53,430 nt of DNA from a virus. A program made the position numbers and the translations under genes. Position 1 is the first letter of the stretch. Each line of letters opens with the position of its first letter. Below are positions 3,842-51,260 of this stretch, piece after piece. The notes beneath the pieces are model-generated. The model saw nothing but the letters and a program-made list of their open reading frames with translations. It had not been told where the DNA came from and made no database searches. The DNA is taken from positions 1-53,430 of IMG/VR virus record IMGVR_UViG_3300044632_002284, one strand, 5' to 3'.

Positions 3842-3884
3842 AATGCAAAGTAAAACAAAAAATTTGACACTACCAAATAAAAAA

Positions 3885-3904: not shown

Positions 3905-3930
3905 CTTTATGATTTTGATTTAAATGGGAA

Positions 3931-4362
3931 TTACATCATCCCGATTGAGTTAATCACATCTCCCTGTCTGATTTGGTCAAGGACATCAAGACCTTCCACC
4001 ACTTTACCAAAACAAGTGTGGTTATTATCCAAATGCTGTGTACCTTGTCGGTTGTGACAGATAAAGAACTGTGAACCACCTGTGTTACGTCCCGCATGTG
4101 CCATAGACAATACACCTCTGTCGTGGTATTGTTTTGGTGCGGTTACCTCACACTGAATGGTGTAGCCAGGACCACCGTTACCCATACCGTTAGGACATCC
4201 ACCCTGAACAACAAAGTTTGGAATTACTCTGTGGAAGTTTAATCCATCATAAAACTTCTTCTCAATTAAACTTTTGAAGTTACCTGTGGTAATTGGCGTT
4301 TCATCGTCATACAATTCTGCAATCATATCACCCTTGCTTGTTGAAATTTTTACTCTACTCAT
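3931..4362 (-). CDS. Cyclophilin-type peptidyl-prolyl cis-trans isomerase
   Basis: 143 residues, a minimal single-domain cyclophilin. Diagnostic stretches are FHRVIPNFVVQGGCP (catalytic Arg, Phe and Gln region), RGVLSMAHAGRNTGGSQFFI and NNHTCFGKVVEGLDVLD. The position that is Trp in human cyclophilin A is His here, as in many bacterial members. There is no signal peptide, so it acts in the cytoplasm, where it could speed folding of proline-containing phage proteins such as the collagen-like fibres; that link is inferred. Phage cyclophilins are uncommon. Confidence 0.93.
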   Translation of the reverse strand: MSRVKISTSKGDMIAELYDDETPITTGNFKSLIEKKFYDGLNFHRVIPNFVVQGGCPNGMGNGGPGYTIQCEVTAPKQYHDRGVLSMAHAGRNTGGSQFFICHNRQGTQHLDNNHTCFGKVVEGLDVLDQIRQGDVINSIGMM

Positions 4363-5610: not shown

Positions 5611-6128
5611 CGTCTCAAATAATTGTTGATTTTATCTTGAACTTCAGGGTCATCACCCGTGTAAATGATGTCTATAAGATAACGATGTAATGGATATATT
5701 TCATTAGTCATCACACGTTCTTCCAATTCATTATTCTTTTTATGATATTCGTAGTCAGGTTCAATCCCTGCATAGTTGAACGATTCAACTTTATATTTTG
5801 TTCTTAATTTGTTTCTATCTACAACAAATGTCATATTTGAATCTTCCAATGGTGATTCCAATCCTATACCTATTGTGTGACCTGGGTCCCAATTCTTATC
5901 TCTTGTAAATGAAATGGCGTTTTGATGTTTTGTTTTGGCCATTCTTTTATCATATTGAAGGTAATCTCCTGATGGTATTGAACCCGCCCTTAACGCATCA
6001 CTATTGATTATATCTAATCCCCTGTTTGTTGAAGTCTTGTGATATAACGGAACTCCTTTGATGTCATCAAACACTTCGTTTAATCCCATCACCTCCTTAA
6101 TCCTATTTATGTTTTCAAACAAATTCAT
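5607..6128 (-). CDS. ADP-ribosyltransferase-like protein with capsid-targeting-like N-terminus
   Basis: 173 residues from ATG 6128; a TTG two codons upstream is less likely. The N-terminus is MNLFE-NINRIKEVMG. The body has features of the ART fold: Leu-Tyr-His-Lys-Thr-Ser near residue 27 (the NAD-binding His of H-Y/T-E type enzymes), Ile-Ser-Phe-Thr-Arg-Asp in the middle, and Glu-Glu-Arg-Val near residue 140, which could supply the catalytic Glu. T4 Alt is a packaged, injected ART with a similar N-terminal processing site. The ART call is inference from short motifs; the paired N-terminus with the next gene is seen directly. Confidence 0.5.
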   Translation of the reverse strand: MNLFENINRIKEVMGLNEVFDDIKGVPLYHKTSTNRGLDIINSDALRAGSIPSGDYLQYDKRMAKTKHQNAISFTRDKNWDPGHTIGIGLESPLEDSNMTFVVDRNKLRTKYKVESFNYAGIEPDYEYHKKNNELEERVMTNEIYPLHRYLIDIIYTGDDPEVQDKINNYLRR

Positions 6129-6142
6129 AAACAATAAATATT

Positions 6143-6319
6143 TTAATCTTTTGTAATTAGTTCAGATATCTCCTTTAACACAACGTTCATTTGTGAAATA
6201 CCATCAAATAAAGCAACATAGATGTTTGGATTATTTGGAACATAATAAAACTTTTTTATAGTCCACATTTTGTTGTTGTAAGTAATCTCTTTACCTATGA
6301 TTGGGAATGCATCTCTCAT
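6143..6319 (-). CDS. Small hypothetical protein (58 aa)
   Basis: ATG at 6319, stop at 6143. The protein begins MRDAFPIIGKEITYNN and contains WTIKKFYYVPNNPNIYVALFD, a compact beta-type pattern like small SH3-fold phage proteins. It is preceded by a palindromic TATTTATAAATA element and followed closely by the ART-like gene, so all three genes may form one late operon. No family is recognised. Confidence 0.6.
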   Translation of the reverse strand: MRDAFPIIGKEITYNNKMWTIKKFYYVPNNPNIYVALFDGISQMNVVLKEISELITKD

Positions 6320-22233: not shown

Positions 22234-23346
22234 CTAACCCATTTTTATTTTCTGATAAAGATGAAGTGCCTGAGCAATCACTTGGTGCATATCATAGTAT
22301 TGATAGGTTCCTAACCTACCACCAAACATATACTTCTCAAGTTTATCACCTTGTATTTTGTATTTGGTGTAAATCTCACTATTTGTATCATCCTTGATTG
22401 GATAATAAGGCTCGTTATCACCTGTGTAGTCACAGGGATATTCTTTACTAACATAACTTGTTTTTTGATTTTGATAGTCAAAGAACTTATGTTCTAAAAT
22501 CCTTGTAAATGGTGTATCACTGTCTGTGTAATTAACCACAGGATGTCCTTGGAAACTGTGAGAGGTAATGTGGACGTTCTCCCATGTCAAACTACGGTAT
22601 TCCAATCTACCATGTTCGTAATTAAAAAATTTATCAATCGGACCTGTGTAGATTATCTTATCAGCAACTTCTTCCCACATTCCTTTGTTTTCAAAGAAGT
22701 CTTGGTTCAAGAACACATCAACATTATCCAATAACTTTTCAAATATTTGTGTATACCCACCAACAGGAATACCTTGGTATCTATCGTTGAAGTAATTATT
22801 GTCCCACGTAAACCTTACAGGTATTCTCTTAATGATTGACGCAGGTAGTTCCGTACATTTCTTCCCCCACTGTTTCTCAGTATATCCCTTAATAAACTTT
22901 TCATATATGTCGGTACCGACCATAGACAAGGCTTGTTGCTCTAAGTTAGTTACAGGACCCTTGTATCTTTGTTCCTCTATCTTCGCTCTTGCCTGTTCTT
23001 CTGTCTTCACACCCCACAGTTGGTAAAACGTCCACATATTAAATGGAAGGGTGTATAGTTCTTCTTTGTAGTTTGCTATGGGTGAATTAACAAACTGTTT
23101 AAAATCTGCAAATTGGTTTACCCAATCCCATATCTTTTTACTATCTGTATGAAAGATGTGAGCACCGTATCGGTGAACATGAATTCCGTCAACATCTTCG
23201 GTGTAACAGTTACCCCCAATGTGACTTCTTTTATCTATTACAAGTACTCTATGATTTTTACCCAACTCGTAGGCACAGGTTGCTCCAAAGAGTCCTGCAC
23301 CTACGATTAGATAATCATATTTCTTATTCGAAATCAAATTCAACAC
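22234..23346 (-). CDS. glf: UDP-galactopyranose mutase
   Basis: 370 residues, the usual length. The FAD-binding motif VGAGLFGA is at 15-22, followed by VLVIDKRSHIGGNCYTED. The family signature RYGAHIFHTD and the stretch IANYKEELYTLPFNMWTFYQLWG are present. It converts UDP-galactopyranose to UDP-galactofuranose. It overlaps the first of two glycosyltransferases by 23 bases; together they may add galactofuranose to a glycan on the phage or host. Confidence 0.96.
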   Translation of the reverse strand: MLNLISNKKYDYLIVGAGLFGATCAYELGKNHRVLVIDKRSHIGGNCYTEDVDGIHVHRYGAHIFHTDSKKIWDWVNQFADFKQFVNSPIANYKEELYTLPFNMWTFYQLWGVKTEEQARAKIEEQRYKGPVTNLEQQALSMVGTDIYEKFIKGYTEKQWGKKCTELPASIIKRIPVRFTWDNNYFNDRYQGIPVGGYTQIFEKLLDNVDVFLNQDFFENKGMWEEVADKIIYTGPIDKFFNYEHGRLEYRSLTWENVHITSHSFQGHPVVNYTDSDTPFTRILEHKFFDYQNQKTSYVSKEYPCDYTGDNEPYYPIKDDTNSEIYTKYKIQGDKLEKYMFGGRLGTYQYYDMHQVIAQALHLYQKIKMG

Positions 23347-24487
23347 CGTCAGAACTTAATACAGGTTCCTCAATTCTACGTTTGAGTTTATCTGACCACT
23401 CTTGTAAGAAATTTGATGTGTTATGGTAACAACGGTCTTCAATCAAGAAACACATCTGAGGGAATGGATTCACTCTTTCTTGTCCCATCATAATTTGTAA
23501 GTGTCCATAGATTTCATCGTATCTTCTTTGAGTCTCCAAGAAGAAACACAGGTAGAGTAAGTGTTCGTTTCTTGTTGGTGCGAACGCCTCTGCCTGATGA
23601 AAACACTTTTCAGCCTTCTCCAAGTCACCAATTACTTCCCAAGCCTGACCCATCAAGATAAATGCGAAGTAAGCCATCTCATCAATTCTTGCAGGTCTAC
23701 CAGTTACATAATAGTTATGAGAATACTCCATGAACTTTTCATAGTAGAAAATACATCTTCTAGCAAATTCTTTTGAGTGGTCTAATCCAAATGGAAGTTC
23801 ATCAGACTTACCCCAACAGTCAGAGTATGATTTTGCAACGTACCAAAGGTGATATAAATCTTCTCTAACGGTATTACCAACCACTTTGTCAATTTCAAGT
23901 TCCAAAGCGTCTTTCAAGAACTTCCTTGGAACATGCCAAGTCTGTCCGTCACTGTGAACCACGTGTCTAAATCCTTCAGGGAGAGTAACTCTAACAAACC
24001 CTTCACCGATTTCAGGTAAGTGGATTGTTTCGTGTCTTTTATCGTGTTGGAAGAACCATGGTCGGTCAGCATTCCACAACCAAGTTCGGTAGTATCTCAT
24101 ACCGTTTGCATGTGCAATTACATTATAAGAATCCACACTCAAGTCATCCAATACGGACCAATCAAAATCTTCATCAACCTCAAGAATCTCATCAGCATCC
24201 ATCCTCAAAATCCATTGACATCCGTGGTCTGTTTGGAGACATGTCTTCAAGGTATGGTCTCGGTTCCAACCTGGATATTGCCATTCAATCTCATAGAGTA
24301 AACCAGGGATTCCTTTTTCCGCAAAGAAGTCACGGATAATGTCCTGAGTTCCGTCTTTTGAACCGTTATCTTGGATAACCCAATAGTCAATGTGTTTCCA
24401 CACTGTTTCTAACATTCGGGTTATTGTTGGCGCCTCGTTGGCAACCATTGCGTTTAAACACAATTTAATTTTCTTGTTATTATTCAT
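23324..24487 (-). CDS. Family 2 glycosyltransferase with helical C-terminal repeats
   Basis: 387 residues. The N-terminal GT-A domain has LNAMVANEAPTITRMLETVW, IQDNGSKDGTQDII at 38-51 and the metal-binding DAD at 97-99. The C-terminal half (about 265-350) contains a TPR-like unit (AWEVIGDLEKAEKCFHQAEA). This SunS/TPR-like architecture is known for peptide and protein glycosyltransferases. It lies between the mutase and the next glycosyltransferase, overlapping both. Confidence 0.9.
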   Translation of the reverse strand: MNNNKKIKLCLNAMVANEAPTITRMLETVWKHIDYWVIQDNGSKDGTQDIIRDFFAEKGIPGLLYEIEWQYPGWNRDHTLKTCLQTDHGCQWILRMDADEILEVDEDFDWSVLDDLSVDSYNVIAHANGMRYYRTWLWNADRPWFFQHDKRHETIHLPEIGEGFVRVTLPEGFRHVVHSDGQTWHVPRKFLKDALELEIDKVVGNTVREDLYHLWYVAKSYSDCWGKSDELPFGLDHSKEFARRCIFYYEKFMEYSHNYYVTGRPARIDEMAYFAFILMGQAWEVIGDLEKAEKCFHQAEAFAPTRNEHLLYLCFFLETQRRYDEIYGHLQIMMGQERVNPFPQMCFLIEDRCYHNTSNFLQEWSDKLKRRIEEPVLSSDGVEFDFE

Positions 24488-25727
24488 AGATGTAATTCAT
24501 TATTTGTTCTTCATTATGATACTTTCTCACTCCCCCACGGTTTTGAAACTTCTGAGAGTGACCCAGTTCTTCATCCCAATTCCAATCTTCAAAACCTAAC
24601 TCAATGATTCTCTCATGAATTCGTTTGTCGTAATGGTCTCGGATTAATCTTGCTCTACGATTGATGTCTGTCGCGTTGTTATCAACCGTTGAGTTTTTGT
24701 TGTTATATTGGATGTATAACATTTTTTTGACGTGAATCATTCGTGTATGTAGAAATGTATGAACAATAAGTTCAAAGTCATCAGCAACAGGTGTCAACTT
24801 ATTGTGTCCACCAATCTCATGATATAGTTTTCTTTCCCACATTCTAACGTGGTTTGGCATTGATATGTTAAACCGTATAGACAATGGGTTGATATCAGGG
24901 TACCAATGTGCCAGTCTCTCAACACCATCAACCATAACTTTGGTATGACCAGCATATCCAAAGTCAAAGTAATTGTCGTGTCTTGCATACCAATCACCTG
25001 ACCAATCGTGGTCATAGTATTTGAACTCACCATCCTCGTAACACTCGGTAACGTCTGTGTATAGGAAACCAGCATCGGGATATTGAAGGATTGCATCGTG
25101 AGAGATTTGTAAACACTCTGAAGTTAATGCATCATCATGGTCCAACTCAACCAACCAATCCCCATCACCAAGTGTTGCTGCTCTGTGTTTTGCCAAACCA
25201 ACGTTACCACCTGTAATTGGATACAATTTATGTGGTTTTACTCTATAGTCATTCTCAGCGATTTTCTTGAGGATATTCCACGTAATCTCATCAGGTGAAT
25301 CATCCAACACAATCCATTCCCAATTGGTAAATGTTTGTTTTTTCAGACTCTCATAGGTTCTGTAAATCCTTTCGTTTGTCTTATACGTTGGAGTGAATAC
25401 TGAGAACCGTGGACGTATGTAGTCGGTGTTTCTGAAAACAGACTGACATACAATTACGTTTGCCAAGACCATATCAGGTAACGGTTCATCATAGTGAATA
25501 TGAAATCTCGTTAAATGGAAATGTGGTATTTCAATGTTCTCATCAAAAGAAATGATTAGGTCGGGCTTATACTGTGTGTAATCTTCAATGACTCTATTCT
25601 CATAGGGTAAAGAATAAATCACAACCTCATCATGAAGGTGTTCCTCCCAATAAATGTCTGAATGTAATATAATCTCCCCCAAAGTGTGCCAACCGTAAAC
25701 GATTGCCGATGGTTTTTTTGTCTGCAT
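24480..25727 (-). CDS. Family 2 glycosyltransferase with N-terminal extension
   Basis: 415 residues. The GT-A domain begins at about residue 107 (RFSVFTPTYKTNERIYRTYE), with WEWIVLDDSPDEITW, then GNVGLAKHRAATLGDGDWLV and the metal-binding ELDHDD. An upstream ~105-residue segment (GWHTLGEIILHSDIYWEEHL) is not recognised. It overlaps the following glycosyltransferase by 8 bases and is the first gene of the sugar operon. Confidence 0.9.
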   Translation of the reverse strand: MQTKKPSAIVYGWHTLGEIILHSDIYWEEHLHDEVVIYSLPYENRVIEDYTQYKPDLIISFDENIEIPHFHLTRFHIHYDEPLPDMVLANVIVCQSVFRNTDYIRPRFSVFTPTYKTNERIYRTYESLKKQTFTNWEWIVLDDSPDEITWNILKKIAENDYRVKPHKLYPITGGNVGLAKHRAATLGDGDWLVELDHDDALTSECLQISHDAILQYPDAGFLYTDVTECYEDGEFKYYDHDWSGDWYARHDNYFDFGYAGHTKVMVDGVERLAHWYPDINPLSIRFNISMPNHVRMWERKLYHEIGGHNKLTPVADDFELIVHTFLHTRMIHVKKMLYIQYNNKNSTVDNNATDINRRARLIRDHYDKRIHERIIELGFEDWNWDEELGHSQKFQNRGGVRKYHNEEQIMNYIYE

Positions 25728-29595: not shown

Positions 29596-29621
29596 AAAAG
29601 GTCAGCCGAAACTGACCTTTT
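29596..29621 (+). terminator. 10-bp intrinsic terminator, bidirectional
   Basis: AAAAGGTCAG (29596-29605) pairs with 29612-29621; T-rich on both sides. It ends the plus-strand pair and also serves the convergent 29681-29974 gene, with a further 7-bp hairpin at 29661-29677. Confidence 0.8.
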
Positions 29622-29680
29622 CTTTTGGGACTGACCGAATGACAGTCAATCACTCCACCACCTGACATTATGTCAGGAAA

Positions 29681-29974
29681 TTATTTGGTAACTAAAGCTT
29701 CCACCTTAGATTTCATATGTTCTGACAAACTAAGTTCACCAACTGTTGGTGTAACCAAGGAAGTCAAAACAATAGAATCAACCAAATACTTGTAAGGAAT
29801 GTGAACCAAGAAGTCGGTACCATTGAAGAAATCTAAATCTCCTTTGAGTTCCAAACAACCGTGAACCATCTTCAAAAACAACTTAAACTGAACACCATCA
29901 ACAAAGGTTTCATTCAAGAGGGTTCCGAACTTCTCGTTCTCAATCCGAATATTGTATGTAAAATTTATTTTCAT
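29681..29974 (-). CDS. Hypothetical protein (97 aa)
   Basis: Begins MKINFTYNIRIENEKFGTLL; predominantly beta, with a hydrophobic core (FLVHIPYKYLVDSIVL) and a short helical end. Driven by a consensus promoter (29993-30000) with a leader of about 15 nt. It lies downstream of the giant RNA, separated by that RNA's terminator. No family is recognised. Confidence 0.6.
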   Translation of the reverse strand: MKINFTYNIRIENEKFGTLLNETFVDGVQFKLFLKMVHGCLELKGDLDFFNGTDFLVHIPYKYLVDSIVLTSLVTPTVGELSLSEHMKSKVEALVTK

Positions 29975-29992
29975 ATCTGTTGTTTAACACTA

Positions 29993-30000
29993 CAAATATA
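29993..30000 (-). promoter_or_regulatory. Host-type promoter -7 box TATATTTG
   Basis: TATATTTGTAGTGTTAAAC on the minus strand, nearly identical to the promoters at 2417 and 27138. Confidence 0.7.
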
Positions 30001-30026
30001 AAAAGAACTTTCCATATAAACAAAAA

Positions 30027-30052
30027 AACCCGAAGATTTTTTTCTTCGGGTT
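30027..30052 (-). terminator. Strong intrinsic terminator of the giant RNA
   Basis: AACCCGAAGA (30027-30036) pairs perfectly with 30043-30052, followed by seven Ts on the minus strand. Confidence 0.9.
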
Positions 30053-30976
30053 TTGGCACTTAGGTTGAGAATACACCTTTGATTGAGAATCTTTAGGAAC
30101 ATTATTGTTTCTTTCCGTTTCCACTATCTTTTGAATAGTAATTCTCAGTGACGGTTCCTTAGGGGTACCACTCCTTGAGTTGTAGCTTACTCTCTTTTTA
30201 CTTATTACTCTCCGAGGTTGCCACCCCAGTGAATCCTTGCGGGATTAGAGAACGTTCTCAAGAATCGTGTGGGTCTTGGAAACCCACAACGGCAATGAAC
30301 ATCTCATTACTATGTAGTCACCTTTCACCTACAACTGACGGACACTTTTCCTTTGTCTTTTAGTATTTGCATACCTATAAAATGCAAAGTTTGTTGTTTG
30401 TGGATGGATGAAAGTAGTGGTCCGCCGACCAGCCAAGCCATCTTTTGAACGACTCGATACTATACTACTCTCTGAGATATCCCTACCTCAACACTTCAAG
30501 ACTACTTCGTGACTTATGTCTTGGTAGACAATGGTCAAGGATGATTTCGGCACCACCCGTTTGTCATCATACCTTTCGGTTTTAAGTATCCTTTGATATT
30601 GAATCCCGCAGTTATAAGGTTGGATTACCCTATTTCCCACAACAATTCTACGAGTTATTCTTATTGTTCTTCCGAACTCAACCCAACGACCCACATCGCT
30701 GAGTCATATTTCCATTTCATCTACAGTGTCACCCTCGATTACTTAGGACTTATGATATCCCGCTTGCCTACTCGAGTTAATAAAACCGAAGTTTTAAAAA
30801 CCGCAATCTCTTTTAAACTTGAGAGACCACTTTATCCCACTTTCGTGGTTTATTTATCGACCATAGGCGGCCGATTATCTTTTCTCAGTATTTTCTCAAA
30901 ATCAACCCAAGGGTCTCATCATCAACATACTGATGGAATAATCAATAATTTAAAGAACGTTTCAGTTTCCTGATTT
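30027..30976 (-). ncRNA. Giant structured noncoding RNA (~950 nt), GOLLD/ROOL-like candidate
   Basis: No credible ORF lies here, yet the sequence is richer in G+C than the gene gaps and full of hairpins. It has its own promoter and terminator. On the minus strand loops are the stable RNA types: UUCG (30782-30795), GAAA (30837-30848) and GAAA (30962-30973). Helices include 7 bp at 30856-30862/30869-30875, 7 bp at 30268-30274/30282-30288, 7 bp at 30366-30372/30382-30388, and an 8-bp long-range helix 30178-30185/30329-30336 that closes a ~145-nt domain. A pseudoknot is possible near the 3' end. It lies just downstream of a tRNA, as giant phage RNAs often do. Class membership is inference. Confidence 0.75.
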
Positions 30977-30982
30977 GTTATA

Positions 30983-31012
30983 CAAAGATACAACAGTTTT
31001 TCATTCTGTCAA
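30983..31012 (-). promoter_or_regulatory. Promoter of the giant RNA (TTGACA ... TATCTTTG)
   Basis: Minus strand: TTGACA (31007-31012), 16-nt spacer, TATCTTTG (30983-30990). Predicted start is near 30976. It combines the host TAnnTTTG box with a TTGACA, so it is probably strong. Confidence 0.75.
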
Positions 31013-31032
31013 GCACCTTCGTGTTTTTTTTG

Positions 31033-31105
31033 TAGCGGGAGAGGGAATCGAACCCCCGACCTCAAGGTTATGAGCCTTGCGAGCTACCGCTGCTACTATC
31101 CCGCG
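31033..31105 (-). tRNA. tRNA-Met (CAT), initiator-like
   Basis: 73 nt without encoded CCA. Anticodon CAT is at 31070-31072; the anticodon stem is CAAGG/CCTTG, the T arm has loop TTCGATT, and the acceptor stem is GCGGGA/TCCCGC. The first base C faces T at position 72, so the first pair is open as in initiator tRNAs, and the D arm (AGCAGCGGTAGCTCG) is initiator-like. However, the anticodon stem has only two of the three G-C pairs typical of initiators. It lies between two RNA elements on the same strand. Confidence 0.88.
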
Positions 31106-31129
31106 ATTTATTTTTAAGAACGTTCCCCG

Positions 31130-31216
31130 AAAAAAAGTCCCACAACTTATTGTATTCTCTCGAACACTCGTTGTAGGACTGTGAATTGAGGATTTAACTC
31201 CTCTTCTTCCGAGTGT
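31130..31216 (-). ncRNA. Pseudoknotted leader or small RNA ending in a terminator
   Basis: From a promoter at 31221, the minus strand gives ~85 nt. An 11-bp stem (31136-31146 with 31170-31180, one G-U) is followed by a T run: an intrinsic terminator. The 5' end (31210-31216) can pair perfectly over 7 bp with the terminator loop (31164-31170), an H-type pseudoknot. A 5-bp hairpin (31188-31192/31199-31203) sits between. It may be a small RNA, or an attenuator for the tRNA that follows 25 nt downstream. Confidence 0.6.
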
Positions 31217-31220
31217 CTCA

Positions 31221-31252
31221 CAAAGATAAAACAATTTTTTCAAATTGTCAAA
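31221..31252 (-). promoter_or_regulatory. Promoter of the tRNA-region leader (TTGACA ... TATCTTTG)
   Basis: TTGACA (31247-31252), 18-nt spacer with a 7-bp inverted repeat (31231-31248), TATCTTTG (31221-31228). It nearly duplicates the giant-RNA promoter. Confidence 0.7.
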
Positions 31253-31302
31253 AGGGCTAAGTGAAACTTTTTTGTGGGGTGTTTCTACCTTTCGGTGGAG
31301 AT

Positions 31303-31310
31303 TATAAATA
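31303..31310 (-). promoter_or_regulatory. Candidate late promoter ATATTTATA before the RNA locus
   Basis: The minus strand reads TATATTTATAATC upstream of the leader, so the RNA locus might be driven both early and late. Confidence 0.35.
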
Positions 31311-31330
31311 TAGACATACTATTGAAAAGT

Positions 31331-31759
31331 TCAATCTTTTTCAAAAATATTTTGTAAAATTGTTTTCAAATATACTCCTGTATCCATATTATTGACTTTA
31401 TCCAAACCAAAATACCCACATTCAGTGTGTTCATGTCCATCTTGAGCGGTTTCAAGGTTAGGGTACATATACTCATGGGTATTCAACAAATAAACATACA
31501 TCATACCTTTTATACTACCGTCAGTCTTTTTCTTTTTTGGTAGTATACCCACAAAATCTAAATCGTAGTTATCTATGTTAATATCGGTCTCTTCGTAAAA
31601 CTCTCTGTACGCAGCTTCTTTAGTTGATTCATCTTTTTCAACGTGTCCTGAAGGAATAGACCACATATTAGGGTAAGATGACTTACCGTTTCTTTTACAC
31701 AATAAGCATTCACCGTTAACTTTAACGACCACACCACTCAACCTTTTATACTTTTCCAT
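31331..31759 (-). CDS. NUDIX hydrolase
   Basis: 142 residues. The Nudix box GHVEKDESTKEAAYREFYEE is at about 38-57 and continues T-D-I, with Asp replacing the usual Gly. A variable Cys pair (CLLCKRNG) precedes it. The enzyme cleaves a nucleoside diphosphate linked to another moiety; the substrate cannot be told. It starts back-to-back with the DUF192 gene, both fed by a palindromic TATTTATAAATA between them. Confidence 0.9.
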   Translation of the reverse strand: MEKYKRLSGVVVKVNGECLLCKRNGKSSYPNMWSIPSGHVEKDESTKEAAYREFYEETDINIDNYDLDFVGILPKKKKTDGSIKGMMYVYLLNTHEYMYPNLETAQDGHEHTECGYFGLDKVNNMDTGVYLKTILQNIFEKD

Positions 31760-39945: not shown

Positions 39946-40935
39946 ATGGCACTTATTGATTTAGCAATTAAAGATTTCAACGAGGGTGATTACGACCTAA
40001 TTGAAACAGCATTTAATGGCGATATATTCTCATTCTTTAATTATGCTGATAAAAGAGGTAAATTTGATGAAATTATTGCCGATGATTATAATCACAACGA
40101 TTATGAAAACGATTACACTCTGTGGGTTTCTAATAACAAACCAGAAATTTTCCGTAAACTTATTGAAGACAAATTATCCGATGTGAAATACATTGATGGT
40201 AAATGGTATTTTATAACATCTGATAGGGGAGATTTATCCAAACTTTATTGTGACAGTAGAGATATTAGTCGTGAAACAATAGAATCTATATTGTCAGGAG
40301 AATATGATAGTTCTGATTATTGGGATTCAGGAATAGATGTCTATGACAACGTAATTGATGATTTAAATGACCAAAACAAACAAACTTTAATTGAAAAATT
40401 ATTAGAGGAATTGAAAGATGAAAGAATTACACCGTCAACAGATTTATTAGAAGAAATTGCATCGTCACAAGGTCATGATGAATATGTATCTTTAGATACT
40501 GAAACATTAAATAGAATAATAGATGATAAAGATTCTATAAAAGAAATCCTACCCGATGATTTAGACAGTGAGTTAATAAGTTTATATTGGAGTGCATATA
40601 ATGCCGCATATGAAGATGAACTCTACAAATCTATTTGGGGTGAACTTGATTCTATATTTGAAGGTAATGGTGAATGGACTCAAACACCATCCCCTTTTGA
40701 TAAAAATAAATTTATCCAAGCATTTAAAATACCTTTTATTAATTTGGAATCAATTGTAAAAGATTATCTTGAGGATAATCTTAGATATAGAGATAGAACC
40801 TTGGAGTATTGGGGTAACATCATTGATATAATAGATGATACTCATGAGTGTTTAAGAGTTAGAGTCCCTGAATATGCAGATTGGACTGATACTAAAGAAA
40901 ATATTAATTCTCTTTACAACGATTACATTTCTTAA
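39946..40935 (+). CDS. Acidic hypothetical protein (329 aa)
   Basis: ATG 39946 is preferred to 39892 because the terminator and GTATTTATA lie between. Very acidic (EIIADDYNHNDYENDYT, EELKDERITPSTDLLEEI) and helical. Its acidity and length parallel the coiled-coil protein on the other strand. It may be a DNA mimic or a structural protein. No family is recognised. Its end overlaps that of the last fibre gene by 4 bases. Confidence 0.65.
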   Translation: MALIDLAIKDFNEGDYDLIETAFNGDIFSFFNYADKRGKFDEIIADDYNHNDYENDYTLWVSNNKPEIFRKLIEDKLSDVKYIDGKWYFITSDRGDLSKLYCDSRDISRETIESILSGEYDSSDYWDSGIDVYDNVIDDLNDQNKQTLIEKLLEELKDERITPSTDLLEEIASSQGHDEYVSLDTETLNRIIDDKDSIKEILPDDLDSELISLYWSAYNAAYEDELYKSIWGELDSIFEGNGEWTQTPSPFDKNKFIQAFKIPFINLESIVKDYLEDNLRYRDRTLEYWGNIIDIIDDTHECLRVRVPEYADWTDTKENINSLYNDYIS

Positions 40936-43900
40936 AGTAATCTTTTTTCTTTCGCCTTTACTACAAGTTTTTGAGCTCTGTCTTCAATTGAGTTAATAAT
41001 AACTTCTTGCTCTTTTAAAGCTTCAATACACACGGCAATCATCTCTTTGTATTTCATGGTGTAGTGTTTTTCTTCACTACCAGATACAAGTTCAGGGAAA
41101 TATGGTAAAACTTCTTGAGCAATAAAACCAATGTTTTTATGTCCAAGTTTTTCTTTATCATCCCAATTATAATAGAATTCAACACCACGAATTTTAATTA
41201 AATTTTCAAGTGCAGATTCAATAGGTTCAATGTTTGTCTTTAATCTAATGTCGGATGGTCCTGTAGGTCCTGTAGCACCTTGTGCACCCGTATTACCCGT
41301 GGCTCCTTGTGCTCCTGTAGCACCTTGAGCACCAAAAGTAGAACCTGCCTTTCCTTGAGCACCTGTAGGTCCTTGAGCACCACCTGCACCAGGTCCTTGA
41401 GCACCTGTTGCACCTTGGGAACCTGTAGGTGCGGTACCTGGAAAACCTTGAGCACCTTGAGCACCCGCACCTTCAGAAGGAAAACCTTGAGCACCTTGTG
41501 TACCAACCGCACCTTGAGCACCTTGTCCTCCTTGTGGTCCTTGAGCACCTTGTGGTCCTTGAGTTCCTTGTCCACCCGCAGCACCTGTTGAGCCACCTCC
41601 ACCCTGAGAACCTTGTCCTCCTTGAGTACCCTGAGCACCTTGTCCTCCCTGAGCTCCTTGTGAACCTTGTCCTCCTTGAGTACCTTGAGCACCTTGACCT
41701 CCTTGAGAACCTTGTGAACCTTGAGCACCTGTAGAGCCACCTCCACCTTGCGAACCTTGTCCTCCCTGAGCTCCTTGTGAACCTGTAGCACCTCCACCAC
41801 CAGCACCACCTTGCGAACCTTGTCCTCCTTGAGCTCCTTGTGAACCTGTTGCACCTCCACCGCCAGTTCCTCCTTGAGCACCTTGTCCTCCTGTTGGTCC
41901 TGTGGCACCTTTACCTCCTTGTGAACCTTGTCCTCCTTGTGAACCTTGTCCTCCTGTTGGTCCTGTGTCACCTTTACCTCCTTGTGAACCTTGTCCTCCT
42001 TGTGAACCTTGTCCTCCTGTAGACCCCTGAGCACCTTGAGCACCTTGTCCTCCTTGTGAACCTTGAGCACCTTTACCACCTTGAGAACCTTGAGAACCTG
42101 TAGCACCTCCACCACCAGTCCCACCTTGAGAACCTTGACCTCCTTGTGAACCTTGTGAACCTTGAGCACCTGTGGAACCACCTCCACCTTGAGAACCTTG
42201 ACCTCCTTGTGAACCTTGAGCACCACCTCCACCTTGAGAACCTTGACCTCCTTGAGTTCCTTGTCCTCCTTGAGAACCTTGTCCTCCTTGTCCTCCTTGA
42301 GTACCTTGTGAACCTTGAGCACCCTGACTACCAACACCACCTATCGAACCTTGAGCTCCCTGACCACCTTGAGTACCTTGGAAACCTTGTCCTCCTTGAG
42401 CCCCTTGATTACCTGTTGCTCCTTGTGAACCGGTCGCTCCTTGGAAACCTTGTCCACCCTGAGCTCCTTGGGAACCAACCGCACCTTGAGAACCTTGTCC
42501 TCCTTGAGAACCTTGTCCTCCTTGTGAACCGACCGCTCCTTGCGAACCTTGCCCTCCTTGAACACCCTGAGCACCTTGTCCTCCTTGAGAACCTGTAGCA
42601 CCTTGAGAACCCTGTCCTCCTTGAGTACCCTGAGCACCTTGTCCTCCTTGAGAACCTTGTGAACCAACCGCACCTTGTGAACCTTGAGCTCCCTGTACTC
42701 CTTGACCTCCTTGAGCACCTTGACCTCCTTGAGCACCTTGACCTCCTTGAGAACCTTGAACTCCTTGACCCCCTTGAGCTCCTTGTGAACCTATATTACC
42801 TTGAGTTCCTTGAGTTCCTTGAGCTCCTTGTCCTCCTTGAGAACCTACAGGACCTTGAGCACCTTGTCCTCCCTGAGTTCCCTGAACACCTTGACCTCCT
42901 TGAGAACCTTGTGAACCTATATTACCTTGAGCACCCTGTCCTCCTTGAGCACCCTGTCCTCCTTGAGAACCTTGTCCTCCTTGTCCTCCTTGAGTACCTT
43001 GTGAACCTTGAGCCCCTTGACCTCCTTGAGCCCCAAGTGAACCAAGACTACCTTGTGAACCTTGACCTCCTTGAGTACCCTGTCCTCCTTGAGCGCCAAC
43101 AGCTCCTTGTGAACCTTGACCTCCTTGAGTACCTTGAGCACCTTGTCCTCCTTGAGCACCTTGAGCTCCAATAGAACCTTGAGCTCCAATAGCACCTTGC
43201 GAACCTTGTCCCCCTTGAGCACCTTGATTACCTGTTGCTCCTTGTGAACCAACCGCACCTTGAGCACCTTGTCCCCCTTGAGCACCTTGATTACCTGTTG
43301 CTCCTTGTGAACCAACCGCACCTTGTGAACCTTGTCCTCCCTGAGTACCTTGTGAACCTGTATTACCTTGAGCTCCAATAGGACCTTGAACACCCTGAGC
43401 GCCTTTAGCTCCTACATTACCTTGACTTCCTTGGCTTCCTTGACCTCCTTGAGCACCTTGACCTCCTTGAGCACCTTGCGAACCTACAGGACCTAAAAAT
43501 CCTTGAGAACCTTGAGCGCCATCCGCACCTACCGAACCTTGAGCACCTATACTACCTTGAGAACCTTGAGCACCCTGAGCTCCTTGTCCTCCTTGAGAAC
43601 CTTGTGAACCTATATTACCCTGAGAACCTTGAGCACCCTGAGCTCCTTGTCCCCCTTGTGAACCCTGTCCTCCCTGAGTACCTTGTGCTCCTTGAGTACC
43701 TTGTGAACCCTGTCCTCCCTGAGTACCTTGTGAACCTACACTACCAACAGCACCTTGTGAACCTTGTCCCCCTTGAGAACCCTGTCCTCCTTGAGTACCT
43801 TGTGAACCTTGAGGTCCTTTTCCACCTTGAGCACCTTGTCCTCCTTGAGAACCAACATTACCTGTTGCACCTTGTGAACCAACATTACCTTGAGCACCTT

Positions 43901-44231
43901 TACCACCTTGAGAACCCTGAGCTCCCGCAGCACCTTGAGAACCCTGAGCTCCCGCAGCACCCTGAGCTCCTGTTGGTCCGGTATTTGCTGTACCCGTCCA
44001 AAGAGCATTATTAACTACCGTACCTGCAGTTGTTGCAATAGTACTAAAAACATAAAGATTGTTAAAAAACAACCTAAATTTAGGTGAGGTATTAATAACT
44101 TTAAAATAAACAGTAGTACTGACTTTCCAATCAAGTACAGCACTGGAGTAAACCCAAGTTGCCTTAGTATTATTTGTATCATACAACTCAACAGTTGCAC
44201 TACCTGGTAATATAATGATATCCTTAGCCAC
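40932..44231 (-). CDS. Collagen-like fibre with S74 chaperone domain (1)
   Basis: 1099 residues. A short N-terminal domain begins [16 protein letters not shown] (attachment to the virion), followed from residue 85 by ~900 residues of Gly-x-y triplets, mostly GAQ, GSQ and GGQ, then a peptidase S74 intramolecular chaperone from Ser993 (SDIRLKTNI; catalytic Ser993 and Lys998) with [16 protein letters not shown]. The S74 domain trimerises the fibre and then cuts itself off. This is a phage receptor-binding fibre. It overlaps the upstream gene by 8 bases. Confidence 0.92.
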
Positions 44232-47200
44232 CTATTTTTGTACTTAAATCTTTAAGAAAATTATTCAACACTTCAACTCTTTTTTGGTTTTCAATTAATG
44301 CTGATACACCAACCGAAACCAATAGTTCATATTGTAAATTCTTATAACCATATTTATCTGTCCAAACTAAATCTGGATATTTTTCTTCAATTTCTTGAGC
44401 AATAAATCCAAGATTCGTACCTGTAATTAGATATCTGTACTCTGGTAAATAATCTGATAATTGAGGAATGTCCTCAACCCAATCAAATTTAACACCTCTC
44501 ATGCTAACAATGTTTTGTCTAACGTTTGTGAGAGGTTTAATATTTGTTTTATATCTGGCATCTGACGGTGGTCCTTGAGCACCTGTGGCACCTTGAGCAC
44601 CTTGTGGTCCTTTACCACCTTGAGCACCTGTACCTCCACTCGGTCCTTTTGCACCTTGAGAACCCTCAGCACCTTGAGCTCCGTTACCACTCGGTCCTTT
44701 TGTACCTTGAGCACCTTGTGAACCTTGTCCTCCTCCAGGTCCTTTTGGTCCTTGAGCACCTTGTGGGCCTGGCGTTGGTGGACCAATTGACCCTGCAGCA
44801 CCTATAGTTCCTTGAGCTCCTGTATTTCCCGTGGAACCTGTATTTCCCGCAGCACCTTGAGCACCCTGAGTAGAACTCGCGCTACCTTGAGCACCTTGGG
44901 CTCCTTGAGCTCCTGTATTAGCACCCTGAGCACCTTGTGCTCCTTGAGTTGTACTATTAGCTCCCTGAGCACCTGTATTACCTTGAGCACCTGTTGCACC
45001 TTGAGTAGAACCTTGAGCTCCTTGAGCTCCTGTGGAACCTCCACCACCTTGTGAACCCTGAGCACCTGTAACACTACTTTGAGCTCCTTGAGCACCTTGT
45101 CCTCCTTGAGAACCTTGACCTCCTTGTGCACCTTGTACAGAACTTTGAGCTCCTTGAGCACCTTGTCCTCCTTGAGAACCTTGACCTCCTTGTGCACCTG
45201 TACTAGCCCCTTGAGCTCCTTGTGAACCCTGAGCACCTTGGGCACCTGTAGCACCTTGAGCTCCTGTACTAGCCCCTTGAGCACCTTGAGCTCCCTGAGC
45301 ACCTTGGGCACCTGTAGCACCTTGAGCTCCTGTACTAGCCCCTTGAGCTCCTTGTGAACCCTGAGCACCTTGTTTACCCGTAGCTCCTTGGTCACCTTGA
45401 ACCGAACTTTGAGCACCCTGAGCACCTTGTCCACCTTGAGCACCTTGACCACCTTGAGCACCTGTATTAGCACCTTGAGCTCCTTGTGCACCTGTTGAAC
45501 CTCCACCACCTTGGGAACCCTGAGCACCTGTCACACTACTTTGAGCACCAGTACTTCCTTGTGAACCCTGAGCACCTGTACTTCCTTGAGCACCTGTAGG
45601 TCCTCCTTGAGCACCTTGTGCTCCTTGAGAACCTTGTTTACCAACAGCACCTTGAGCACCTGTAACTCCTCCTTGAGGACCTTGAGTACCTTGAGCACCT
45701 GTATTACCTGTAGCTCCTTGAGCGCCCGTATTACCTCCTTGAGCACCTGTACTACCTTGAGTACCTTGGGCTCCTTGAGCACCTTGGGCTCCTGTGTTAG
45801 CTCCTTGTGCCCCTTGTGCTCCTTGAGCTCCTTGAGCTCCTGTACTACCTTGAGCTCCTGTAACACCACCTTGAGCTCCTTGAGCACCTTGAGCTCCCGT
45901 ATTACCTGTGGCACCTTGAGCTCCCGTGGTTCCACCTTGAGCTCCTTGAGCACCTTGAGCTCCCGTATTACCTGTGGCACCTTGAGCTCCCGTGGTTCCA
46001 CCTTGAGCTCCTTGAGCTCCTTGTCCTCCTTGAGCACCTGTAACTCCCGTAGCACCCGCAGTACCTCCTTGAGCACCTATATTACCTTGGGCACCTGTAT
46101 TACCTGTCGCACCTTGGGCACCCTGTACAGAACTTTGTGCACCTTGAGCTCCTTGAGCTCCTTGTGAACCTGTATTACCTTGAGCACCTTGAGAAGCTCC
46201 TTGAGCTCCTTGAGCTCCTTGAGCACCTGTATTACCTGTAGCACCTTGAGCACCTTGGACGGAACTTTGAGCTCCTTGAGCTCCTTGAGCTCCTTGAGCA
46301 CCCGTACTACCTTGAGCACCTGTAACACCACCTTGAGCTCCTTGAGCACCTTGGGCACCTTGTTTACCTATAGCTCCTTGAGCACCTGTACTAGCACCTT
46401 GAGCTCCTTGGAATCCTTGAGCACCTTGAGCACCCGTACTACCTTGAGCACCTGTAACACCACCTTGAGCTCCTTGAGCACCTTGAGCACCCGTGTTTCC
46501 TGTAGCACCTTGAGCACCTGTGACACTACTTTGAGCACCCACAGAACCTTGAGCACCTTGGGCTCCTTGAGCCCCTTGAGCTCCTGTGTTAGCTCCCTGA
46601 GCACCTTGAGCTCCTTTAGGTCCTTGAGCACCTTGAGCACCTTGAGCACCTGTATTAGCACCCTGAGCACCTTGGGAACCTGTTGGTCCTTGAGCTCCCT
46701 GAGCTCCTTGAGCTCCCGTACTAGCACCTTGAGCTCCTTGAGCTCCTTGTCCACCTTGTGAACCTTGCCCACCTTGAGCACCAGGAGTATCATCCGTACT
46801 ACCCTGAGTACCTTGGGCTCCTTGTGCACCTGTACTACCTTGAGCTCCTGTACTCGCACCTTGAGCTCCCTGAGCACCTGTTGGTCCTTGAGAACCTTGT
46901 GCACCTGTTGGTCCGATTACAATACTCGCAGTTCCTTGACTACCTTGGGCACCTTGGGCACCTGTATTACCTTGAGCACCCGTGCTAGCACCTTGAGCAC
47001 CTTGGGCACCCTGAGCACCTTGGGCACCTGTATTACCTTGAGCACCTTGTGTGGAACTGTTAGCACCTTGAGTTCCTTGAGCACCTTGGGCACCCGTTTT
47101 TCCTTGAGCACCTTGGACTGAACTTTGAGCACCTTGAGTACCTTGTGCACCTTGAGCTCCCTGAGCACCTGTATTACCTTGAGCTCCCGTACTAGCGCCC

Positions 47201-50200
47201 TGTGCACCTTGAGCACCTTGTGTACCCTGAGCTCCTTGAGCACCTGTGTTAGCCCCTTGGGCTCCCTGTCCACCTTGTGTACCTTGAGCACCTTGTCCTC
47301 CCTGAGAACCTTGAGCCCCTTGTGCTCCTTGGGGTCCTTGTGTACCTTGAGCTCCTGTTGGTCCTTGTGTACCTTGAGCTCCTTGAGCTCCTTTAATATT
47401 GGCTTGTGAACCTATCCATTCTCCAAGGTAGTTAATAATCTGAACATATGTAGAACTACCATCCCACGCGTAAATACCTTCACCACTACTTAGGTCATTA
47501 ACAGAAAAACCTTTAGAAGTGACTGCTTGAGTACCAATACTACCTACAGAAGAATCTGTGGATGATGAAAATGTTAAATCACCATTAGCATTAACTTTTT
47601 GAACCAACTGATTACCAGTGGCATCCTCATAAATAATAAAAGGTACACCACCTGAAAAGGTGTTACCTGAAGGGTATATTATAATATCATTAGCCATTAG
47701 TAATTCTCAATATATTCCTCTAACATAGTTAATCTTTCATCAACAGATGCAATGTTATTTTGATGTTCTTTAATACCTTCCACTAAATATGCATTAAGTT
47801 GCGGATAAAGGATATAGTAATATCCATTTTCTCTCATTCTTACCACTTCAGGGATGTGTTCTCTAACTTGTTGAGCAACAAATCCTAAAGAGTGTGTTTT
47901 GTTATTTTGAAGGTAATAATCATATTCAGGAGTATTTTCTGTCCAATCAAACTCAACAGGTTGTAACATCATCAATTTTGTTAATGAGCCCTCTAAAGTT
48001 ATAACTTCATTTTTAAGTCTTAAATCTGAGAAACAACATACCAACGTACAAGTTACATCTACAGTGGCTTGATACTCCGCTATTACCAAATTAATAAGAC
48101 TATCACAACCAGAACAGTCATCTATATCATAAACTTTATCATTTGAGGTACAGTTAGGCATCATCACATTCGAGTAAACATTTGGCATTCCCATCGGCGC
48201 TAGAAAATCACAATCTGGAAATAATCCAACAAAACCAACATCATAACACGCAGGTGCTGCTGGAGGCCCTGTCGCTCCTTGAGCACCTTGAGCTCCTTGA
48301 GGACCTTGTGTACCTGTTGCACCTTGGGCTCCTTGAAGACCTTGACCTCCTGTTTGTCCTTGAGCCCCTTGTGCACCAGGTGAACCAGGAATACCCGTAC
48401 CACCTTGAGCCCCTTGAGCTCCTGTATTACCAACACTACCATTCACACCTTGAGCCCCTTGAGAACCTTGCGACGGCAATCCGTCAGGACCTTGAGCGCC
48501 TTGTCCTCCGGTAGCACCTTGAGCACCAGGACTAATTCCTGTACCTCCTTGAGAACCTTGTCCTCCTGTTGGTCCAAAACCTCCTTGAGCACCTTGAGCA
48601 CCTGTACTACCTTGAGGTCCAAGATTACCAGTATTACCTGTAGGTCCTTTACCACCTTGAGCACCTTGTGAACCTGTGTCACCTCCACCACCTGTGGGAC
48701 CAACCGCACCTACAGAACCTACACCACCTTGAGAACCCTGAGCACCCGTGGAACCTTGAGGTCCTATATTACCCGTAGCACCTGCATTACCTTGTGCTCC
48801 GGTATTACCTGTATTACCTTGAGGTCCTATATTACCCGTAGCACCTTGAGGTCCTTGTGCCCCGGTATTACCTGTATTACCTTGAGCTCCTGAATGACCT
48901 GTAGCGCCCTGAGCTCCTGTGGAACCTCCTCCACCAATAGCACCTTGTGCACCTGAATGACCTGTAGCACCCTGAGCTCCTGTGGAACCTCCTCCACCAA
49001 TAGCACCTTGTGCACCGGTGTGTCCTTGAGCACCTGTGTTACCTTGTGAACCTACAGGTCCTGTAGCACCTGTCGGACCTATATTACCTTGAGCTCCCGT
49101 ATTACCTTGAGCTCCCGTATTTCCTGTGGCACCTTGAGCACCTGTATGTCCTGTTGCACCGGCACCACCTTGAGAACCTTGAGCTCCTGTAGAACCCTGT
49201 GGTCCTATGGCACCTGTATTACCTTGAGCACCCGTGGAACCTTGAAGTCCTGTTGCACCTTGTGGTCCTACCGCTCCTTGAGCTCCTTCATTACCAAATA
49301 CACCTGTAGGTCCTGTAGCACCTTGTGGTCCTATTGGTCCTTGAGCACCTGTTGAACCTTGAGAACCTTGTGGTCCCGTGGCTCCTTGAGGTCCAATAGA
49401 CCCCGTACCACCCTGAGCACCTTGTGCACCTGTGTTTCCTGTTGCACCTTGAGCACCCGTGTTTCCTGTTGCACCCGTGTTTCCTGTTGCACCTTGTGGT
49501 CCCGTAGCACCTTGTGGTCCAATATTACCTTGAGCACCTGTTGAACCTTGAGAACCTGTTGGTCCTGTTGCACCTTGTGGTCCAATATTACCTTGAGCAC
49601 CCGTTGAACCTTGAGAACCTTGTGGTCCGATGGCACCTTGTGGTCCGATATTACCTTGAGCACCCGTTGGTCCTTGAGCTCCTTGTGGACCTTTAGGTCC
49701 TTGTGGGCCAATTGACCCTTGGCTTCCTGTATTACCTTGAGAACCTGTTGGCCCTATATTTCCTGTCGGTCCAAGGTTACCTTGAGCACCGGTATTACCT
49801 TGAGCACCTTGTGGTCCTATATTACCTTGTGCACCTGTATTACCTTGAGCACCCGTTGAACCTTGAGAACCTGTTGGCCCTATATTCCCTGTGGGTCCAA
49901 GATTACCTTGAGCACCTATATTACCTTGAGCACCAACGTTACCTACATTACCTTGAAGTCCCACCGCTCCTTGAGCACCTTCATTACCAAATACACCGGT
50001 GTTACCAGTCGCTCCTTGAGCTCCTGTATTACCTTGAGCCCCTTGTGGTCCTTGAGCACCTTGTGGCCCCGTATTTCCTTGTGGTCCTAAAGCACCTTGA
50101 GCACCTGTATTACCTTGTGAACCCGTTGGTCCTGTAGCACCTGTTGGTCCTACAGCACCTTGTGCACCTATATTACCTTGTGCACCCGTATTACCCGTGG

Positions 50201-50980
50201 CTCCTTGTGCTCCTGTATGTCCCGTGTTACCTTGAGCCCCTTGTGCACCAGTATTACCCGTAGCTCCCTGAGCACCTGTATGTCCTGTATTACCTTGAGC
50301 CCCTTGAGCACCGGTATTACCCGTGGCTCCTTGAGCACCTGTATTACCCTGAGCACCTGTATTACCCTGAGCACCTGTATTACCCTGAGCACCTGGAGGA
50401 CCAATAGGTCCTTGTGCACCTGTATTACCTTGTGCACCCGTATTACCCGTAGAACCTTGAGCTCCTGTATTGCCCGTAGAACCTTGTTTACCTTGAGCCC
50501 CTTGGTCTCCTTGAGCACCTTGGTTACCAATTTTACCTTGAGCACCTATAGCTCCTTGAGCACCTGTATTACCTGCAGCTCCTTGAGCACCTGTGTTACC
50601 TTGAGCACCTATGTTACCCTGTGCACCCGTTGGTCCTTGAGCTCCTGTAAGTCCTTGAGCTCCTTGAGCCCCGATATTACCCTGTGCACCCGTTGGTCCT
50701 ACCGCACCTGTTGGCCCAATATTACCTGTTGCACCCTGTGCTCCGGTATTACCTTGAGCACCTGTATTTCCTACGGCTCCTTGAGCACCTGTATTACCAA
50801 TGTTACCTTGAGCACCTGTATTACCCGTAGCTCCTTGAGCACCTGTGTGTCCTGTATTGCCTTGAGCACCTTGAGCACCAACGTTTCCTTGAGCACCTGT
50901 ATTACCCACATTACCCTGAGCACCAATATTACCTGTATTACCCTGAGCACCAGTATTACCCGTAGCGCCTTGAGCTCCAA
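41265..50980 (-). repeat. Tandem Gly-x-y coding repeats in three fibre genes
   Basis: Hundreds of near-identical 9-base units (Gly-Ala-Gln and relatives) fill three blocks: 41265-43980, 44565-47395 and 48240-50980. Short-read assembly of this region could be collapsed or rearranged, and recombination between units is likely. The many long reading frames in the other five frames here are by-products. Confidence 0.9.
44224..47697 (-). CDS. Collagen-like fibre with S74 chaperone domain (2)
   Basis: 1157 residues. The N-terminus [16 protein letters not shown] is related to that of the other two fibres. Gly-x-y triplets run from about 103 to 1044, dominated by GAQGAQ with GST, GNT and GAS. The S74 domain starts at Ser1045 (SDARYKTNI, Ser1045/Lys1050) with [16 protein letters not shown]. 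The sequence of the chaperone domain differs from its neighbours, so each fibre folds on its own. It shares one base with the next gene. Confidence 0.92.
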
Positions 50981-51260
50981 CAATATTTGTAGTTGGACCT
51001 ACCCATCCTTTAGTACCATTTAAAACTTGAACACCATTAACAGATAAATTATCCGTAACGTTAAGATTTCTAATAGTAAATTCGGTATCAGATAATTTGA
51101 ATATTGTGTTAACTCCGACAATCCATTGGAAACTTGTTGTTGAACCACCTGTGGCAACCACACGACCTGTCATTGATGCTGTTCCACCATCAAAATAAAA
51201 ATAAGGAACTGTTATACTTGAACCATCCCCCTCGGGATAAATAGTAATATTTTTAGGCAT
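47697..51260 (-). CDS. Collagen-like fibre with S74 chaperone domain and Cys-rich knob (3)
   Basis: 1187 residues, first gene of the fibre operon. N-terminus [15 protein letters not shown]. Gly-x-y triplets run from about 95 to 985, with more GNT and GPT than the other two. A unique Cys-rich segment (~990-1076: about ten Cys, [15 protein letters not shown]...) precedes the S74 domain at Ser1078 (SDLRLKNEV, Ser1078/Lys1083). Because the S74 domain is released, the Cys-rich segment may be the receptor-binding tip. GTATTTATA is upstream. Confidence 0.92.

Follow-up and report, generated by a model that had tools for sequence, protein, structure and literature searches.

The RNA encoded on the minus strand of a gene-free viral locus is a GOLLD RNA, a further member of an already known family, and its leader carries a predicted boxA of the kind that heads the rRNA transcripts of the putative hosts. 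The locus lies in a 53,430-base IMG/VR virus record, the whole of which was analyzed and is here named the window. Of the natural RNAs whose cage structure has been solved, GOLLD RNAs are among the largest. Taken as a whole, we consider with good confidence that the locus is a boxA-led GOLLD unit of a Bacteroidota phage, whose transcript would be antiterminated, assembled into a cage and active on translation. Such a boxA-led expression unit is undescribed, as far as the literature searched goes.

A full-length GOLLD match in a gene-free viral locus

A scan of the window with 4227 Rfam families gave only two matches above cut-off, a tRNA (31033-31105, minus strand) and GOLLD (RF02032; 30062-30472, minus strand), the latter with 318.8 bits against a curated cut-off of 150 bits, an E value of 1.5e-90 and model positions 1-416 of 416 covered. 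ROOL, OLE and HEARO had no match at their gathering scores in the window, nor at E<=5 in 29600-31400. A previous reading made from the letters alone (the sequence-only reading) had proposed a giant phage RNA of the GOLLD or ROOL type beside a tRNA and suggested covariance-model searches for these four families, which single out GOLLD. Its view that 30027-31252 is free of genes agrees with Pfam, where none of the four overlapping ORFs of at least 60 aa matched a family at E<=1 (Table 1). That reading had named a protein family in the interval, or homologues without compensatory changes, as arguments against itself; Pfam gave no such family, and compensatory changes turned out to be abundant. 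The RNA is assigned to GOLLD because of the full-length Rfam match together with the covariation of the 5' domain, which in GOLLD is less conserved and beyond the reach of the Rfam model. The setting is that of a phage, namely a virus record with tail fibre-like genes and an adjoining tRNA-Met (31032-31105). No tRNA was found inside the linker of the window's GOLLD.

We infer that the phage infects Bacteroidota. One window protein carries the T9SS sorting domain PF18962, and a second one has matches in 4 of 50,697 phage records, which all belong to Flavobacterium phage immuto, with 45.5% identity over 53% of the window protein's length. A UDP-galactopyranose mutase was dropped as a clue to the host, as it matches phages of many hosts; its gene lies with two glycosyltransferase-like genes at 22234-25727 on the minus strand. 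At 40932-51260, also on the minus strand, three long tail-fibre-like proteins with collagen-like matches are encoded one after another.

Table 1. Coordinates of the features discussed, in window positions
Feature	Position	Strand	Basis or remark
Intrinsic terminator of the GOLLD transcript	30025-30054	-	stem-loop then Ts
GOLLD 3' domain (ring domain)	30062-30472	-	RF02032 positions 1-416
Variable linker, 3' domain	30344-30404 (approximate limits)	-	unpaired stretch of the GOLLD model
GOLLD 5' domain (cap domain of the solved cage)	30473-30878	-	19-sequence alignment, covariation
7-bp helix closing the linker	5' arm 30420-30426 / 3' arm 30337-30343	-	covariation scan
Long-range helix, 3' domain	5' arm 30317-30322 / 3' arm 30147-30152	-	covariation scan
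5'-domain hairpin loop / linker flank	30689-30694 / 30400-30405	-	covariation scan
boxA ACGTTCTTTAAATTATTG, rRNA-type antitermination element (predicted)	30943-30960	-	host rRNA matrix, conserved core
GOLLD promoter TTGACA-N-TATCTTTG	30983-31012	-	immediately ahead of the ~950-nt RNA
tRNA-Met(CAT), initiator-like, no encoded CCA	31032-31105	-	tRNA call, Rfam
Second, weaker boxA-like sequence ACGTTCTTAAAAATAAAT	31106-31123	-	just upstream of tRNA; rank 81 in window (host matrix)
Terminator-like hairpin AGTCCTACAAC...GTTGTGGGACT then Ts	31136-31180 (approximate)	-	by eye; absent from the scan's sites
Upstream promoter TTGACA...TATCTTTG of the leader/tRNA unit	31221-31251	-	second copy
ORFs without Pfam match	30593-30973; 30488-30694; 30175-30363; 31001-31243	+; -; +; -	program-made list

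Relatives of the RNA in viral, phage and genome sequences

Two pattern scans of viral contigs returned 69 loci in 68 records, of which the Rfam GOLLD model matched 60 at E<=0.001 and 53 above the cut-off. After extensions, the comparison set held 61 copies, the window's own included, 12 of them forming the near-identical cluster to which it belongs. A profile of 16 full-length sequences matched 45 of the 61, 43 at 465 to 914 bits and two (L033 and L073) weakly; those 43, window included, are taken as the window's clade, in which many copies are near-identical and two (L081, L082) are cut short. Gathering these 43 copies opened the poorly conserved 5' domain to covariation analysis.

In a phage collection, GOLLD was detected in two uncultured phages of 642 kb (275.3 bits) and 635 kb (287.3 bits), and under stricter filters in none of four other phage records checked alongside. 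Upstream of its GOLLD the 635-kb phage has a boxA core and a tRNA whose loop reads CTCATAA, while no boxA core is visible for the 642-kb phage. Flavobacterium phage immuto 2-6A, which shares a protein with the window, gave no GOLLD match, nor did Cellulophaga phage phi4:1_13 and Erwinia phage pEa_SNUABM_47 (stricter filters), each sharing a tRNA-Met with it.

Genome contigs scanned with the GOLLD 3' motif gave 53 matches, and Rfam, run on 19 of these, found GOLLD in L092 only. Most of the matches looked like chance (18 of the 19 without GOLLD, the other 34 lying outside that scan). The sequence profile found zero GOLLD among all 53 and missed L092 too, so that it is blind to distant GOLLDs. 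Among genomes of the order Lactobacillales, GOLLD was found in 0 of 118, in a search that had no positive match to vouch for its sensitivity. The L092 contig, binned as a Saprospiraceae genome, has its GOLLD at 3554-4024, exactly at the cut-off (150 bits), and 16 tRNA matches, one of them inside the GOLLD linker region. Five copies of the comparison set (L018, L041, L050, L078 and L079) carry tRNA genes in the linker, about -325 to -417 from the 3' end, which is described as a trait of some GOLLDs in the accessible part of PMC12286853.

Covariation supports a two-domain fold

The minus strand, folded as 943 nt, has a z score of -6.31, and none of 20 shuffles was equally stable. RNAalifold on 16 full-length sequences gave 202 pairs for the whole RNA, 118 of which show at least one compensatory change on both sides. 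In the 5' domain, aligned over 19 sequences, 97.1% of 1935 cells are paired and 66 of 102 pairs carry double changes, a result reached by 0 of 500 shuffles; the covariation score is 0.577, compared with 0.226 after shuffling and 0.09-0.11 for slid versions. Because a structure scored on the sequences from which it was derived is at an advantage, this alignment was split, with the limit that it had been made on all 19 sequences jointly: the structure of nine sequences pairs 988 of 1050 cells (94.1%) in the remaining ten, and the reverse split 935 of 1006 (92.9%), slid versions giving 38-45%. As this covariation shows, the RNA folds into a 5' and a 3' domain, and both have the features of GOLLD, namely a conserved 3' structure with its long-range helix and pseudoknots, and a separate, structured and less conserved 5' domain.

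Outside the nested structure, stacked covarying pairs formed four helices of at least six pairs, three of which are listed in Table 1. The helix closing the linker has four pairs with double changes and three conflicts with the nested consensus, the long-range helix of the 3' domain three and one, and the pairing of a 5'-domain loop with the linker flank two and one, the last being the weakest of the three. This loop and the linker flank may pair within one chain or between chains, two arrangements that look the same in sequence covariation. The fourth helix, which we do not claim, would join the boxA core (30953-30958) to 30731-30736 by six pairs, with two double changes and three conflicts. 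Counting nested helices as well, 15 reach six pairs or more with two or more double changes, whereas 100 column permutations gave 0.15 such helices on average and never more than 1.

Several elements of the sequence-only reading recur in this structure: its UUCG (TTCG) hairpin at 30782-30795, its GAAA hairpin at 30837-30848 (CCAC-GAAA-GTGG), and its long-range helix 30178-30185/30329-30336, which falls within the conserved long-range helix of the GOLLD model. It had also predicted a 3' pseudoknot; pseudoknot-type helices do covary in the 3' half, such as the long-range helix in Table 1, and one of them may be the pseudoknot then meant, which was described without coordinates.

A predicted boxA of the host rRNA type in the GOLLD leader

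A short generic boxA consensus was not enriched in the window over shuffles (18 occurrences versus 16.4 expected), and therefore a matrix from host rRNA leaders was used. The host side comprised 23 loci of 16S rRNA, taken from four Bacteroidota genomes and from a sample of the order to which one of the four, a Flavobacteriales assembly, belongs; loci of Bordetella, Enterococcus and Ruminococcus, two small Sphingobacteriales fragments and three small fragments were left out. The boxA core of the GOLLD leaders is present in 20 of the 21 Bacteroidota rRNA leaders of at least 150 nt, and the matrix was built from these 20 alone; the Bordetella leader has the proteobacterial form CTGCTCTTTAACA. Scored with this matrix, the boxA of the GOLLD leader ranks first over both strands of the window (18.0 versus 13.7 for the next site), a rank that covers the window only, since the record may be a genome fragment.

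The 5'-domain anchor was located in 41 of the 61 copies, which reduce to 23 distinct leaders, window included. The core G[TC]TCTTT[AG]A is found within 160 nt upstream of the anchor in 22 of these, against 12 sites in 286,748 positions of the same loci as a control (0.6% per 150 nt); the deviating leader, L044, reads GTTCTTTTA. The 23 leaders are not independent events, because they are related by descent, with close ones in L001/L003, L013/L075/L080, L017/L056 and L019/L036/L043, and the sequence flanking boxA has diverged between leader groups. When the host matrix was applied across loci of 2.7-14.6 kb, the best leader site was the top one in 15 of 23 loci and among the first four in all of them, some other site outscoring it in the remaining 8. 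The element, on which the sequence-only reading was silent, is unpaired in the consensus structure and upstream of the structured RNA, at a distance from the anchor that varies from 39 to 145 nt, and its likeness to host leaders extends past the 9-nt core. As the best host-rRNA-type match in the window, with a leader position conserved in relatives, it is a candidate boxA, supported by where it lies, by its conservation and by the longer host matrix.

Among the 20 copies without the anchor, six (L018, L023, L026, L027, L041 and L073, three of them one cluster) carry the core between -884 and -1295 relative to the 3' end and two (L030, L047) have it only elsewhere; it is absent from ten in the upstream sequence, up to 3 kb, and two more were too short. 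The huge phage record LR756502.1 contains GOLLD and has no boxA core in the 4.2 kb examined. Other GOLLD branches are often without boxA.

Promoters, terminators and the upstream leader

The TTGACA promoter and the terminator with which the sequence-only reading had bounded the RNA are both present, the former as two TTGACA-N-TATCTTTG sites on the minus strand. From the proximal one, we infer a transcription start near 30976. This promoter matches TAnnTTTG, which we take to be the Bacteroidota-type -7 element; within 100 nt upstream of the GOLLD boxA the motif is found in 18 of 23 distinct leaders versus 185 of 2836 control windows, and it is lacking there in L038, L044, L055, L057 and L058. 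In L057 and L058 the tRNA and GOLLD may be one transcript, since boxA follows closely behind the tRNA and the -7 element stands before it.

A terminator scan of the region gave one site and proves nothing by itself, because shuffles also yield a mean of 1.0. L013 and L075 retain the terminator seen in the window; hairpins of their own with T runs were seen by eye in L017, L019, L055, L059 and L062, and another RNA-like sequence immediately 3' of GOLLD in L020, L034, L037, L038, L051 and L064. Ahead of the tRNA, the minus strand of 31136-31251 consists of a promoter, about 70 nt and a terminator-like hairpin. By eye, the hairpin is conserved in L003, where it shows a paired change, and in L013, L075 and L017. 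An attenuator is one possible reading of this unit, a separate small RNA another.

The adjoining tRNA-Met

Initiator tRNAs have no strong pair at 1:72 and three G:C pairs at 29-31:39-41. The tRNA-Met of the window has a C1-U72 mismatch, as initiators do, and A29:U41 in place of one of the three anticodon-stem G:C pairs, so that the description as initiator-like in the sequence-only reading holds at 1:72 and fails in that one pair. Among 14 distinct upstream tRNA-Mets of the clade, 1:72 is mismatched in 12 and A-U or U-A in two, with no G:C (the L059 tRNA being an odd fit in this comparison), and GGG/CCC anticodon-stem pairs occur in 2; four of the 18 rows of the tRNA table (L018, L029, L041, L082) were left out as belonging to another clade or not upstream.

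tRNA-Met(CAT) stands upstream of GOLLD in 20 of 23 distinct clade loci, and in 11 of these 20 a boxA-like sequence lies no more than 60 nt ahead of the tRNA. It was not called in L044, L055 and L071, L055 having a CTCATAA loop uncalled by ARAGORN. A tmRNA upstream and a tRNA array downstream of GOLLD are found in L020, L051 and L064, and other GOLLD copies lie next to various other tRNAs, or none was called. The neighbourhood of GOLLD and tRNAs is already known, as the accessible part of PMC12286853 reports that env-38 GOLLD was found downstream of a Met-tRNA and that GOLLD is often near tRNAs.

boxA as a bait in viral contigs

The extended boxA form MGTTCTTTRAAWTATTGAA was used as bait in viral contigs and yielded 75 loci, in which there are 57 distinct sites. 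The profile puts 14 of the 57 at a GOLLD 5' end, and 11 further ones are followed within 600 nt by a tRNA or tmRNA on the same strand, together 25 sites with GOLLD or tRNA genes. Rfam, applied to 28 of the 72 new loci, added a GOLLD in L221, the 3' domain starting 440 nt downstream of boxA (15 of 57). Nine sites are inside ORFs of at least 100 aa, and the remaining 22 are without GOLLD, tRNA/tmRNA or ORF, several of them near the end of a contig or ahead of an ORF. Of the 20 distinct sites obtained with the reversed motif, 0 have GOLLD, 0 have a tRNA and 18 lie in ORFs. Three of the 14 GOLLD sites (L037, L051, L064) were already known from the first scans. As the pattern was shaped by leaders seen earlier, it acts as a bait for that same element and is no blind discovery, and the result lies in the contrast with the reversed motif.

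Some sites lead other stretches. In L190 (5751-6215) a viral boxA leads a stretch resembling manA RNA, with a sub-threshold match to RF01745 at 5982-6166 (47.3 versus 55.2 bits) and a fold z of -2.26. The boxA-led stretches of L246 (7686-8100), L225 and L182 (9982-10290) had no Rfam match at E<=0.1. Those of L246 and L225 end, by eye, in a terminator-like hairpin, and that of L246 has no unusual folding stability (z = +0.84); L182 and L246 share 277 nt at 78.7%, L182 running into an ORF. Downstream of boxA in L220, L223 and L237, tRNA sequences seem by eye to be interrupted by inserts, and in L220 the Rfam tRNA match spans 144 nt.

Proposed expression and function of the unit

In the expression scheme that we propose, host RNA polymerase would start at the Bacteroidota-type promoter near 30976, and host NusB-S10 should bind to the boxA, which lies within the first ~35 nt of the RNA. 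The polymerase would thereby pass ~950 nt without Rho termination and end at the terminator of Table 1. Given the rRNA-type motif, it is probable that the untranslated RNA is read in this way and helped in its folding, as on rRNA. By analogy with the solved GOLLD 14-mer, it is probable that the RNA assembles into a similar hollow homo-oligomer. What such a cage might do is more tentative: it may act on translation late in infection by holding or sequestering ribosomes, tRNA or translation factors, a role suggested by the adjoining initiator-like tRNA-Met, by the tmRNA and tRNA arrays of some relatives and by the ribosome pull-down reported for GOLLD (accessible part of PMC12286853). According to the accessible text of PMC7567579, the GOLLD of a Lactobacillus brevis prophage is dispensable for phage production.

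The motif could also be read as a decoy, by which abundant GOLLD would titrate host NusB-S10 and weaken rRNA synthesis, its own antitermination being secondary. The GOLLD motif does copy the host rRNA boxA closely, a GOLLD is reported to rise during lysis (PMC12286853, accessible part), and a GOLLD-sized phage RNA to be the most abundant transcript of ICP1 (PMC7567579, accessible text). However, boxA also precedes tRNA genes (11 of the 57 viral-contig sites), where a simple expression role fits better, and in GOLLD its place in the leader, ahead of the structured RNA, is the one that antitermination requires, so that we hold the decoy for improbable. The same low probability is given to a motif that is part of the fold or a processing site, unconnected to Nus factors. 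Its conservation in the leader would suit such a role, and the helix 30953-30958/30731-30736 has as many double changes as the weakest listed one, with its three consensus conflicts; yet the motif is unpaired in the consensus, its spacing to the anchor is variable, and it is host-like over more than the core.

On the side of function, GOLLD might serve the adjacent initiator-like tRNA-Met, in its storage, maturation or delivery, and not ribosomes generally. The tRNA is upstream in 20 of 23 clade loci and, in the accessible part of PMC12286853, env-38 too lies downstream of a Met-tRNA, but three clade loci have no upstream tRNA-Met called and other GOLLDs are near other tRNAs or none, which makes this reading unlikely, if slightly less so than the two readings of the motif. 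That there is no structured RNA at all, only a decayed coding region or a chance fold, is refuted by the covariation, by an Rfam score far above cut-off and by the lack of a protein family, and its probability is negligible.

We thus retain antitermination of a caged GOLLD, and regard it as fairly likely that Bacteroidota phages more widely borrow host rRNA antitermination for giant or stable RNAs, that is GOLLD, tRNA arrays, perhaps tmRNA, and unclassified ornate RNAs. If so, many such units would begin with a copy of the host rRNA boxA, the phage RNA would be transcribed, protected from Rho and folded like rRNA, and boxA could be used as a bait for further giant RNAs. A host-rRNA boxA at the transcript start would offer a possible route to an untranslated phage RNA of ~950 nt and tie GOLLD to the NusB-S10 machinery of ribosome synthesis.

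Comparison with known systems

No literature linking GOLLD with boxA was found in the collection searched, no title or abstract among the best 10 or 20 matches listed connected boxA with phage tRNA, CRISPR or rRNA, and the accessible text of the literature searched gave no account of how phages express GOLLD. The window RNA shares with GOLLD (RF02032) the full-length match of the 3' domain, a separate 5' domain and a variable linker. With env-38 GOLLD, solved as a 14-mer cage of an 833-nt RNA, it has in common an upstream Met-tRNA and a similar size, put here at ~950 nt (PMC12286853, accessible part); it differs as another sequence, from a phage that probably infects Bacteroidota, and its own promoter and rRNA-type boxA leader have no counterpart mentioned for env-38 in the accessible part of that paper. 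ROOL resembles GOLLD as a giant phage RNA that lies near tRNAs and assembles into a hollow cage (PMC12286853, accessible part), but the window has no ROOL match in Rfam. The rRNA leaders of Bacteroidota share the boxA core and much of the sequence around it with the window's leader, and likewise stand ahead of a long untranslated structured RNA with a tRNA nearby; their product is rRNA, whereas that of the window's unit is a phage RNA. The nut sites of phage lambda likewise let a phage RNA use host Nus factors through boxA (PMC10250234, accessible part), and differ in that the boxA of the window is of the rRNA kind and stands ahead of a stable RNA.
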